A stretch of DNA of 44,292 nucleotides from Synergistes sp. Its GTDB lineage: Bacteria; Synergistota; Synergistia; Synergistales; Synergistaceae. Each line of letters begins with the position of its first letter. The first letter of the stretch is position 1. Made by a program: the position numbers and the translations under genes. Below the pieces are notes generated by a model that did not search any database, was not told where the DNA came from, and worked only from the letters and a program-made list of their open reading frames with translations. Below are positions 35,139-38,211 of the stretch, one piece after another. The stretch lies in NCBI GenBank assembly GCA_017537925.1, contig JAFYJW010000001.1, positions 1-44,292 on the forward strand, given 5' to 3'.

Positions 35139-36071
35139 CTAATCTGTGAAGAGCGGGGTCGAATAGTATCTGTCTCCGCTGTCGGGAAGCAGCGCTACGA
35201 TGACCTTTCCCTTGTTTTCCGGGCGTTTGGCAAGCTCGATCGCCGCGTGCAGCGCAGCGCCAGAGGATATGCCGACAGATATGCCCTCTTTTTTCGCAAG
35301 CAGCTTCGCCGCCGCGAAAGCGTCTTCTCCTGCGGCCTTGAATATTTCGTCGTAAACTTTAGTATTCAGCACTGCAGGCACAAATCCCGCTCCTATGCCC
35401 TGAATCTTATGGCTTCCTGCTCTGCCTTCCGAGAGGACCGGTGAATCGGCCGGTTCAAGCGCTACGATTTTGACTTTCGGATTCTGTTCTTTCAGATATT
35501 CGCCTACGCCTGTCAGCGTGCCGCCGGTCCCGACTCCGGCTACAAAGAGGTCAACTTTGCCGTCTGTGTCTTCCCAGATCTCCGGTCCTGTCGTGGCTTT
35601 ATGAACGGCCGGATTTGCCGGGTTCACGAACTGACCGGGGATAAATCCGCCGGGAATCTCTTTTGCCAGTTCCTCAGCCTTTGCGATGGCGCCTTTCATT
35701 CCCTTTGCGCCTTCGGTAAGCACTATCTCCGCGCCATAGGCCTTAAGTATATTCCTGCGCTCCACGCTCATCGTTTCGGGCATCGTGAGTATTATGCGAT
35801 AACCCTTTGCCGCCGCGATCGAAGCAAGCCCGATGCCGGTGTTTCCGCTGGTCGGTTCGATAATGACAGAGCCTTTTTTCAGAAGCCCCTTCTGCTCCGC
35901 GTCCTCGATCATCGCTTTGGCGATACGGTCCTTGACGCTTCCTGCCGGATTGAAGTATTCCAGCTTAACAAGTACCGTAGCTTCAAGCCCGAGTTCCTTT
36001 TCGATGTTTACGACCTCGACGAGCGGGGTCTTGCCGATAAGTCCCAATGTTCCCTTGTAGATTCTTGACAT
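35139..36071 (-). CDS. cysK: Cysteine synthase A (O-acetylserine sulfhydrylase)
   Basis: This 310-aa PLP enzyme makes cysteine from O-acetylserine and sulfide. The PLP lysine is K47 in [11 protein letters not shown], the substrate loop is [12 protein letters not shown] near 72-83, the phosphate-binding loop is [12 protein letters not shown] near 175, and SSGAALHAA lies near 269. Length is normal for CysK. The ATG has GAGGGT upstream. It is second in the operon met17-cysK and is followed by its terminator. It should share the leader control of met17. Confidence 0.97.
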
Positions 36072-36104: not shown

Positions 36105-37388
36105 TTATTTTATTGCGGAGAAACCATTCTCCAGGTCTGCTATTATGTCGTCAATATGCTCGGTCCCGATCGACAGGCGAATAGTGTTGCGCTTTATTCC
36201 CTGATCCAGAAGCTCTTCGTCGGTAAGCTGCGAGTGGGTCGTGGACGCCGGATGTATCACAAGGCTCTTTACATCCGCGACATTTGCCAGCAGCGAGAAG
36301 AGCTTAAGATTATCAGTAAATTTCCATGCTTCCTCCTGACCGCCTTTGATATCGAACGTAAATATCGACGCACCGCCTTTCGGGAAGTATTTCTTATAGA
36401 GCTCATGATCCGGATGTTCAGGCAGAGACGGATGGTTGACCTTTTCCACCTGCGGATGACGGCTTAAGTATTCTACTACTTTTTTCGTATTTTCGGCATG
36501 TCTGTCAAGACGCAGCGACAGCGTTTCGACGCCCTGCAGAAGCAGGAACGCATTGAATGGCGAAATAGCGGCGCCGGTATCACGAAGGAGTATCGCCCTT
36601 ACATATGTTACAAACGCAGCCGGACCTGCCGCCTCGTAGAATGATACGCCGTGGTAGCTCGGGTTCGGATCTGCGATATTCGGATATTTGCCGCCTGTCC
36701 TCCAGTCAAAAGTGCCGCCGTCAACTATTATGCCGCCAAGAGTCGTGCCGTGCCCACCGATAAATTTTGTCGCGGAATGCACTACTATATCCGCGCCGTG
36801 TTCGATAGGTCTTATCAGATACGGCGTACCGAAGGTATTGTCGATCACAAGCGGGAGTCCGTGTCTGTGTGCGATCTCCGCTATCTTATCAATGTCCGGG
36901 ATGTCGCTGTTGGGATTACCGAGAGTCTCCAGGTAAATCGCTTTGGTGTTTTCCTTTATCGCGCCTTCTACTTCAGAAAGGTCATGGGCATTTACAAAAG
37001 TCGTTTCGATACCGTACTGCGGAAGTGTATTTCCCAGCAGGTTGTAAGTGCCGCCGTAGATCGTCTTCTGAGCAACGATATGGCCTCCGCCTGCGGCAAG
37101 CGCCTGTATCGTGTAGGCTACGGCCGCCGCGCCGGACGCAAGGGCAAGCGCCGCGCTTCCGCCCTCAAGAGCTGCAATTCTTTTCTCAAGTACGTCCTGA
37201 GTGGAATTCGTCAGTCTTCCGTAAATATTACCCGCATCCTTCAGGCCGAAACGGTCAGCAGCATGCTGACTGTTGTGAAAAACATAAGAAGTAGTCTGAT
37301 AGATCGGAACCGCGCGTGCGTCAGTTGCCGGGTCTGCCTGTTCCTGTCCCACATGAAGCTGTAATGTCTCAAATCTATATGCGCTCAT
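36105..37388 (-). CDS. O-acetylhomoserine sulfhydrylase (homocysteine synthase, Met17/MetY type)
   Basis: This 427-aa Cys/Met-metabolism PLP enzyme forms homocysteine from O-acetylhomoserine and sulfide. It begins with RFETLQLHVGQEQADPATDARAVPIYQT, has the substrate-site Tyr in IYGRLTNST near 56-64, and the PLP lysine K208 in VVHSATKFIGGHGTT. Its length (about 430) and the insert near 220-260 separate it from cystathionine gamma-synthase/lyase (about 380). The ATG is preceded by AAGGAGAT. A long leader with promoter, operator-like dyad, leader ORF and terminator lies upstream, and cysK follows. Confidence 0.94.
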   Translation of the reverse strand: MSAYRFETLQLHVGQEQADPATDARAVPIYQTTSYVFHNSQHAADRFGLKDAGNIYGRLTNSTQDVLEKRIAALEGGSAALALASGAAAVAYTIQALAAGGGHIVAQKTIYGGTYNLLGNTLPQYGIETTFVNAHDLSEVEGAIKENTKAIYLETLGNPNSDIPDIDKIAEIAHRHGLPLVIDNTFGTPYLIRPIEHGADIVVHSATKFIGGHGTTLGGIIVDGGTFDWRTGGKYPNIADPNPSYHGVSFYEAAGPAAFVTYVRAILLRDTGAAISPFNAFLLLQGVETLSLRLDRHAENTKKVVEYLSRHPQVEKVNHPSLPEHPDHELYKKYFPKGGASIFTFDIKGGQEEAWKFTDNLKLFSLLANVADVKSLVIHPASTTHSQLTDEELLDQGIKRNTIRLSIGTEHIDDIIADLENGFSAIK

Positions 37389-37454: not shown

Positions 37455-37493
37455 AAAGAGAAAGCCCGGAGGCTTTCATCAAAGCTCCCGGGC
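37455..37493 (-). terminator. Leader terminator (attenuator) of met17-cysK
   Basis: GCCCGGAGGCTTT (37464-37476) and AAAGCTCCCGGGC (37481-37493) form a 13-position stem with one mismatch and one G-U pair, a CATC loop, then TTTCTCTTT on the minus strand. It lies between the promoter and the met17 start, so it must be bypassed for expression. Confidence 0.8.
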
Positions 37494-37655
37494 AGATGGC
37501 ATACAGTACGTCAGATTTATTATTATCGTACTTTTTCGAGGCGTGCGAATGATGTGTCAAACGCCCCGGCCATACTGCCTGCCCGGGTACAGAGCATTCG
37601 CCAACATATACCGTAACCCTGCTTCTCTGTCACTGATCCGATCATCATCCACGCC
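37487..37655 (-). promoter_or_regulatory. Antiterminator and folded leader domain of met17-cysK
   Basis: On the minus strand CCCGGGCAG (37579-37587) is the exact complement of CTGCCCGGG (37487-37495), which forms the 5' arm of the terminator; pairing of the two is mutually exclusive with the terminator. A second set of helices can form instead: GGCGTG-n-ATGATG (37643-37655) with CATCAT-nnn-CACGCC (37540-37554), which encloses the leader ORF start codons, and AGTACG/CGTACT (37505-37532). This layout is that of a transcription attenuator. Confidence 0.65.
37523..37648 (-). CDS. 41-codon leader ORF upstream of met17-cysK
   Basis: An ATG at 37648 is preceded by GGAGGAGG (37654-37661) at a spacing of 5 nt, better than the site of many full genes here. 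The frame runs 41 codons and ends in three successive TAA codons (37517-37525). The peptide starts MMIGSV and ends FARLEKVR; it has Cys at positions 15 and 20 and Met at 1, 2, 18 and 26. The antiterminator segment starts at the second base of codon 21, right after Cys20. No known domain. A cis-acting attenuator peptide is the best reading, although a functional small protein is not excluded. Confidence 0.6.
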   Translation of the reverse strand: MMIGSVTEKQGYGICWRMLCTRAGSMAGAFDTSFARLEKVR

Positions 37656-37686
37656 TCCTCCGTACCATAAATTTCAAACAACGCGT

Positions 37687-37715
37687 ATTATATTTCCATT
37701 TACCTATCATGTCAA
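37687..37715 (-). promoter_or_regulatory. Consensus promoter of met17-cysK
   Basis: TTGACA (37710-37715), a 17-bp spacer and TATAAT (37687-37692) on the minus strand match the sigma-70/A consensus exactly. Such a strong promoter needs control, which the overlapping dyad and leader could supply. The transcript leader is about 290 nt. Confidence 0.85.
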
Positions 37716-37721
37716 TAGGTA
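37701..37721. promoter_or_regulatory. Operator-like dyad over the met17 -35 element (probable Rrf2 site)
   Basis: TACCTAT (37701-37707) and ATAGGTA (37715-37721) are perfect inverted repeats separated by 7 bp and cover the -35 hexamer, the right place for a repressor. Rrf2-family regulators bind AT-rich dyads of similar size, and an Rrf2 gene starts 80 bp away. Confidence 0.6.
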
Positions 37722-37800: not shown

Positions 37801-38211
37801 ATGATATCAACAAGAGGACGCTATGCTGTGCGAGTAATGATAGATCTGGCTGAAAACGAAAACGGCAGATATATCCCGCTGAAAGATATCGCCGCAAGAC
37901 AGGAGATATCAAAAAAGTACCTTGAGATCATCGTAAAAGACCTTGTTGCAGGAGGGCTCATCACAGGCGCGAGCGGAAAAGGCGGCGGGTACAGGCTCAG
38001 CAGAAAGCCTGAAGAATATACCGTGGGCGAGATTCTTGAGCTGACAGAGGGAAGAATTTCTTCCGTAGCCTGTCTTTCCGGCGAAAAGAACATCTGTCCG
38101 CGGAAAGATAAATGCAGGACTCTGCCGATGTGGACCGAATACAACAACATGGTCCATGATTTCTTTTTCGGTAAGAAACTGAGCGACCTCCTGCAAAAGC
38201 ATGATAATTAA
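37801..38211 (+). CDS. Rrf2-family transcriptional regulator (CymR/IscR-like)
   Basis: This 136-aa winged-helix regulator has the Rrf2 start STRGRYAVRVMIDLA (3-17), the recognition region ISKKYLEIIVKDLVAGGLI (36-54), the wing GKGGGYRLSR and the C-terminal cysteine set C91-x7-C99-x5-C105, which could hold an Fe-S cluster as in IscR-like members; CymR-type members usually lack it. It is divergent from met17-cysK and followed 64 bp later by a PLP enzyme, so it probably controls sulfur amino-acid synthesis. ATG start with AAAGGCGG upstream. Confidence 0.9.
   Translation: MISTRGRYAVRVMIDLAENENGRYIPLKDIAARQEISKKYLEIIVKDLVAGGLITGASGKGGGYRLSRKPEEYTVGEILELTEGRISSVACLSGEKNICPRKDKCRTLPMWTEYNNMVHDFFFGKKLSDLLQKHDN

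Follow-up and report, generated by a model that had tools for sequence, protein, structure and literature searches.

Leader and operon

The window, by which we mean the whole 44,292-nucleotide stretch of Synergistes DNA that was analysed, carries on its minus strand met17, for an O-acetylhomoserine/O-acetylserine sulfhydrylase (36105..37388; NCBIfam TIGR01326, 635 bits against a cut-off of 495), followed by cysK, for cysteine synthase A (35139..36071; NCBIfam TIGR01139, 452 bits, cut-off 351). A sigma-70-type promoter precedes them on the same strand (TTGACA-17-TATAAT, 37687..37715) and matches the full consensus at 12/12 positions, as the first-pass annotation had it. Next come a Shine-Dalgarno sequence, GGAGGAGG (37654..37661, minus strand), and a leader ORF of 41 codons plus stop (37523..37648, minus strand), whose ATG is at 37648, whose peptide reads MMIGSVTEKQGYGICWRMLCTRAGSMAGAFDTSFARLEKVR, and which is closed by a triple UAA stop (37525-37517). 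The two cysteine codons that had been described in this ORF are likewise present, and one of them is conserved: Cys15 (UGU, 37604..37606) is the putative stall codon, while Cys20 (37591-37589) lies outside the conserved core and is Ser in a sister species. Cys20 was considered as the stall codon and rejected on that ground, and also since a ribosome waiting there would sit on the antiterminator arm. An invariant CGA-AUG (Arg17-Met18, 37595..37600, minus strand) forms part of a spacer of one ribosome footprint.

The first-pass annotation had proposed an antiterminator whose exact complement lies inside the 5′ arm of a terminator. Both segments were found: CCCGGGCAG at 37587-37579, its first base one nucleotide past Cys20, and its complement CTGCCCGGG at 37495-37487, within the terminator hairpin. 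The true helix is longer than described, continuing past a 5-nt bulge with AUGGC:GCCAU to a total of 14 bp. Its 5′ arm (CCCGGGCAG, the bulge, then AUGGC) thus spans 37569..37587, and its 3′ arm, GCCAUCUGCCCGGG, spans 37487..37500 and overlaps the terminator 5′ arm (both minus strand). The minimum free energy fold of the window leader pairs these arms over 14 bp with the bulge and encloses two hairpins; one lies within the antiterminator loop (GGGGCGU/ACGCCUC, 37537..37568) and a small predicted one surrounds the leader stop codon (37505..37532). The complete leader folds better than chance (z = -3.4). The predicted intrinsic terminator (37455..37493, minus strand) consists of a hairpin at 37493-37464, scoring -22.1 kcal/mol over 64 nt (z = -3.0), and a U-tract at 37463-37455 that is weak in the window (UUUCUCUUU). 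Antiterminator and terminator share an arm and are therefore mutually exclusive.

Sister species and operon origin

A search of 41 relatives with a 301-base query gave one match besides the window, 84% identical, in a genome of the same genus (G002). Its leader ORF (MMSGTVTWKLNYGMCWRMLSSRAGSMTGAFGISFVRLDKVR) has the same length with zero indels and keeps Cys15, with Ser in place of Cys20; residues 3-11 and many past the core vary freely between the two. The antiterminator pairing AUGGC:GCCAU of the window is AUGAC:GUCAU in G002, a compensatory pair. Across 188 genomes of the phylum, taken to be Synergistota, met17 orthologues apart from these two (66–73% identity) have no such leader, and the other matches to the core pattern fall in coding sequence or lack Cys. 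The search output also shows one in-frame TAG in the sister species' met17 (G002:C105:1231-2511), which may be a sequencing error, an end effect or a genuine nonsense mutation.

The closest relatives of Met17 are found elsewhere. The best 80 in named genomes are 80–90% identical and come mostly from Lachnospiraceae and Oscillospiraceae, with some from Treponema; the sources are largely rumen and gut metagenome assemblies. A maximum-likelihood tree places the window and G002 inside a Lachnospiraceae-type clade (98/99), away from their own phylum and adjoining L135 (96/88). Contamination of the contig was ruled out: one of its genes, 888 aa long, shares 97% identity with that of G002 and 89% with that of G001, both members of the genus. 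Because Met17 nests in the Lachnospiraceae-type clade while the contig belongs to the genus, the met17-cysK operon and its switch were very probably acquired from Bacillota.

A leader family in Bacillota

About one third of the loci of these best 80 Met17 relatives have a window-type leader. The conservation expected by the first-pass annotation is limited to G002 in the own phylum, and it is the Bacillota leaders that keep the ORF, the Cys codons and the pairings. We compiled a family set of 52 leaders; five candidates were dropped as chance coding matches (L221, L234, L246, L266, L270), and two were excluded as doubtful although both carry Cys codons (L279, L226). The typical peptide is M-C-C-R-M-x-x-S-R-A, encoded by UGU-UGU-CGA-AUG-nnnnn-CUCCCGGGCA, and the downstream arm UGCCCGGGAG sits within the terminator.

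In all 52 leaders a Cys codon lies at most three codons before the invariant CGA-AUG, which is followed by 5 nt and then by the arm CUCCCGGGCA; the chance of such a Cys is 2.4% per leader. The spacer Cys-CGAAUGnnnnn-CUCCCGGG is constant. Cys was also present in 10/10 leaders from a later pattern search that did not require it, making 62. The last four codons before CGA hold two Cys on average, and in most relatives the conserved Cys codons are the one or two that directly precede CGA-AUG, corresponding to Cys15 of the window. Number and order vary in the core (CC, CW, WC, MC, CCC, CMCMC). The window and G002 have a single core Cys, CW where relatives have CC, and their response may be weaker because only this one codon is kept. 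UGU accounts for 93 of 111 leader Cys codons, as against 38% in coding sequence, where it is the minority codon. CGA, only 5% of Arg codons, is the Arg codon in 29/29 leaders picked by gene. No clear pairing partner emerged for the invariant CGAAUG: downstream the best score was -6.3, a slight gain over the -5.2 of shuffled sequence, and upstream there was no gain. Pattern CGAATGNNNNNCTCCCGGG gave 28 matches against 1 for the reversed-pattern control in 397 Lachnospiraceae genomes; across the class (291 genomes) the counts were 12 and 2. Many Bacillota leader ORFs end in (E/I)-R-C-stop (CGA UGU stop), again with CGA beside Cys; the window leader has lost this C-terminal Cys.

The genes downstream of the leaders include met17, cysK, and NlpA/MetQ-type and cystine-type binding proteins, some of these fused in one gene; further targets are an O-acetylhomoserine (OAH)-sulfhydrylase-like gene, and a peptidase gene that has a binding-protein gene and then cysK behind it. 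The remaining downstream genes were named by eye, among them a YqjG-like gene (L253) that gave no Pfam or NCBIfam match. At L285, a gene that by eye resembles glutamate-cysteine ligase lies about 650 bases past the leader; if it is one, glutathione synthesis would come under the same switch. Each member has, by sequence, a Shine-Dalgarno-led short ORF with codons for the end product, and window-type leaders very probably control cysteine and methionine genes of many gut and rumen bacteria.

Methionine codons, alone or together with those for cysteine, might be what is sensed, since Met flanks Cys in the peptide and met17 also serves methionine synthesis. Most leaders have an AUG at -3 or -4, and MetQ-like transporters are among the downstream genes. 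Yet Cys is the sole amino acid with a codon before CGA in every leader, a ribosome stalled at the invariant AUG would block the antiterminator, the targets include cysK and cystine-type transporters, and the phylum's other sulfhydrylase gene, elsewhere, has a Met-rich MMMC leader of its own. We consider methionine sensing unlikely.

Covariation and folding

The outer antiterminator helix (10 pairs) is paired in 98.7% of cells across the 52 leaders, and shifting the register by 1–3 lowers pairing to 57% or less. In permutation tests that treat the leaders as unrelated and ignore kinship, its 11 double-compensatory cells, in 5/10 pairs, compare with a permuted mean of 1.4 and were reached in 0/2000 permutations, while the inner helix was matched by 3/20000. 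RNAalifold, applied to 28 whole leaders, found the outer helix and the loop hairpin unprompted, both with compensatory pairs. The first-pass annotation had also seen a long-range helix enclosing the leader start. A segment at 37538..37554 (minus strand) can indeed pair with the Shine-Dalgarno and start region (37643-37656), and this complementarity is real and family-wide: leaders paired with their own segment score -14.3, against -11.2 when permuted (0/5000, kinship again ignored). Covariation or complementarity across the family supports both helices that the first-pass annotation had singled out for such a test. Sequestration of the start by the second would be its likely consequence.

A metabolite-binding riboswitch with an incidental ORF might also account for a compact, multi-branch fold such as that of the antiterminator. 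The Rfam models, however, gave no match for the leader at gathering level and nothing credible at E<=10, which agrees with the first-pass view that no SAM, T-box or other known riboswitch is present; unpaired segments are not conserved in the 28-leader alignment as those of an aptamer would be, and every member retains the ORF, the Shine-Dalgarno sequence and Cys codons in frame. This explanation is highly improbable.

Ribosome positions were modelled by folding. When the RNA beyond the edge of a ribosome stalled at Cys was folded, the antiterminator was favoured in 45/52 leaders (0.86 against 0.00 in the window) and the terminator won in 7/52. With the ribosome placed at the stop codon, terminator probability exceeded 0.5 in 49/52 leaders (window 0.84). 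Left untranslated, the free leader often folds preferentially into the antiterminator (window 0.80), and for this reason the off state would need active translation and an untranslated leader would leave the switch on. By computation from spacing and edge folding, then, a Cys-stalled ribosome frees the antiterminator and a ribosome beyond it does not.

Proposed mechanism

A ribosome with a codon in its A site protects about 11 nt past that codon. The 11 nt past the last Cys codon of the leader are exactly CGAAUGnnnnn, and the antiterminator arm begins at the next base. We propose that the region before met17-cysK is a ribosome-mediated transcription attenuator responding to the supply of Cys-tRNA, and put the probability of this reading at about 0.8. 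RNA polymerase would make a leader containing the 41-codon ORF. With Cys-tRNA scarce, the leading ribosome would stall when the Cys codon that precedes CGA-AUG enters its A site, its front edge then lying immediately before the arm (CU)CCCGGGCA. This arm would stay free to pair with (C)UGCCCGGG(AG), the intervening hairpins bringing the two together. This pairing would consume the terminator 5′ arm, and met17-cysK would be transcribed. With ample Cys-tRNA, the ribosome would advance onto the antiterminator arm, covering it, and go on to the stop codon, where it would cover the hairpin closing the antiterminator loop, and the terminator would form. The additional helix could bury the leader's own Shine-Dalgarno sequence. 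The logic of a ribosome waiting at Cys15 was already put forward by the first-pass annotation, and it fits the spacing in 52 leaders, the covariation, the presence of Cys in 62/62 and the sulfur genes downstream.

The invariance of CGA-AUG is not accounted for by this simple model and counts against it. A rival explanation is nascent-peptide arrest, in which M-C-C-R-M would stall its own ribosome on a sulfur metabolite and so set the RNA fold, with no empty A site at Cys. The invariant Arg-Met beside Cys, the use of the rarest Arg codon, CGA, throughout the gene-chosen leaders, and another leader type with the same gene context that also keeps G-R-M would suit arrest. A ribosome stalled past Met would, however, cover the antiterminator arm, Cys codons that vary in number and order are more in keeping with a codon sensor than with an arrest motif, and the peptide outside the core changes freely between sister species. 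We hold arrest to be quite unlikely. An outside possibility is that the C-R-M core goes beyond codon counting within the attenuator: the rare CGA and Arg-Met might add a nascent-chain or programmed-pause step, and the helix might shut off the leader's translation start, in a self-contained cysteine sensor module that moves between phyla with its operon.

A possible second control layer

An inverted repeat, ACCTAT-N7-ATAGGT (37702..37720), overlies the -35 box and is a probable Rrf2/CymR-like operator. A divergent gene (37801..38211, plus strand) encodes an Rrf2-family regulator, CymR/IscR-like: it scores above the cut-off of NCBIfam TIGR00738, the Rrf2 superfamily, and below both equivalog cut-offs (85.8 bits with the CymR model, cut-off 195). 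CCTAT(T)-type motifs precede most Bacillota leaders and also cysK-met17 operons of the family. As a separate observation, a CCTAT-N7-ATAGG repeat recurs near cysK-met17 promoters beside an Rrf2 gene, in acquired and native operons alike (the window; L005-L016, upstream of cysK). The repeat at 37702-37720 suggests, from its sequence, a second layer of control by the Rrf2 regulator. CymR/Rrf2 control of Bacillota cysteine genes likewise involves a divergent Rrf2 gene and a promoter inverted repeat; it acts at initiation, and the attenuator of the window would be an additional layer. Could a repressor of this kind be the sole control, with chance hairpins and a spurious ORF? The operator-like repeat overlaps the -35 box, and elsewhere in the phylum the operator occurs at operons that lack a leader, but all the comparative evidence contradicts the idea and we find it scarcely credible.

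Other leader types

We also saw a second leader type. It has a terminator and a peptide core of M-M-M-C, in some cases MMMCGMMMC or MMIMC, and stands before the other O-acetylhomoserine sulfhydrylase gene (identity about 45–50%). It occurs at no fewer than 20 loci in several families of the window's phylum, the window's own genome included (G000:C61, L033, OAHS at 1172; L025, L093, L098, L101-L103, L106, L120-L131); at other loci a SAM riboswitch takes its place. These leaders are probably a separate Met/Cys-rich attenuator family. A third type stands before met17 in Treponema and Oscillospiraceae, with the peptide F-E-K-L-V-R-x-N-F-R-x-G-R-M and then Cys codons (L137, L168, L171, L180, L182, L188, L191, L208, L211); L161 and L172 resemble hybrids of this and the window type.

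Comparison with known systems

Amino-acid genes of Bacillota are thought to be under T-boxes and riboswitches. T-boxes and SAM riboswitches resemble the window leader in that they act in Bacillota on genes for sulfur amino acids and do so through transcription attenuation, but they sense tRNA or SAM directly, whereas the window leader would sense through the ribosome. It matches neither the T-box model (RF00230) nor the SAM riboswitch models (RF00162 and its clan); the sole T-box found (L025) is at another gene. For the abundant Lachnospiraceae of gut and rumen, a ribosome-mediated Cys attenuator that recurs across a whole sulfur regulon, ahead of both biosynthetic and uptake genes, would supply a sensor that has been missing. 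The window would also offer a clean example of an operon that kept its RNA switch on passing from one phylum to another. How such ribosome stalls are tuned is a sharply defined question raised by the invariant CGA-AUG block.

The trp, his and leu leaders of enterobacteria have a peptide with regulatory codons and mutually exclusive antiterminator and terminator folds, with ribosome position deciding between them. The window family shares the leader peptide, the exclusive folds and ribosome position as the proposed switch. It differs in its few regulatory codons (1–3 Cys), in an antiterminator arm that lies inside the leader ORF, in a helix able to hide the leader's own Shine-Dalgarno sequence, and in the use of a single leader type for many genes of a regulon. 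The first-pass suggestion of a new class of sulfur attenuator holds for the family, which is new and has no Rfam match, but not for the mechanism, which was already known.

In the literature on cysteine leaders and attenuation, with most subscription journals outside the scope of the search, no description of the family was found. The nearest system is the uORFC-8-2 motif, a predicted cysS attenuator of Rhodobacterales (RNA Biol 2021, PMC8632094), likewise ribosome-mediated; its short ORF has conserved Cys codons, usually at positions 14 and 15, and it too includes a terminator. It differs in phylum, in its target (cysS, for Cys-tRNA synthetase) and in having two simple stems, the first of which contains the Cys codons, and no fixed CGA-AUG/CUCCCGGGCA block is described for it (PMC8632094). 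No cysS is among the targets seen here, and the structure differs; the two are set apart by description.

In Actinobacteria, cys-operon leaders with Cys codons have been proposed as attenuators (PMC1262725), and mycobacterial polycysteine leaderless sORFs have been reported (Canestrari 2020, as cited in PMC9094748 and PMC13236596). As far as these citing accounts go, Cys codons of an upstream ORF report cysteine and control cysteine genes there too, but the sORFs are leaderless, with Cys runs near the stop and no terminator hairpin found, and are described as translational attenuation. Compared by sequence, neither uORFC-8-2 nor the actinobacterial attenuators appear to share sequence block, genes or hosts with the window family. 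Its members are Shine-Dalgarno-led, with 1–3 Cys codons, and would act on transcription through an antiterminator/terminator pair, and the best reading of the window leader is as one of a new family of Cys-codon ribosome-mediated transcription attenuators.
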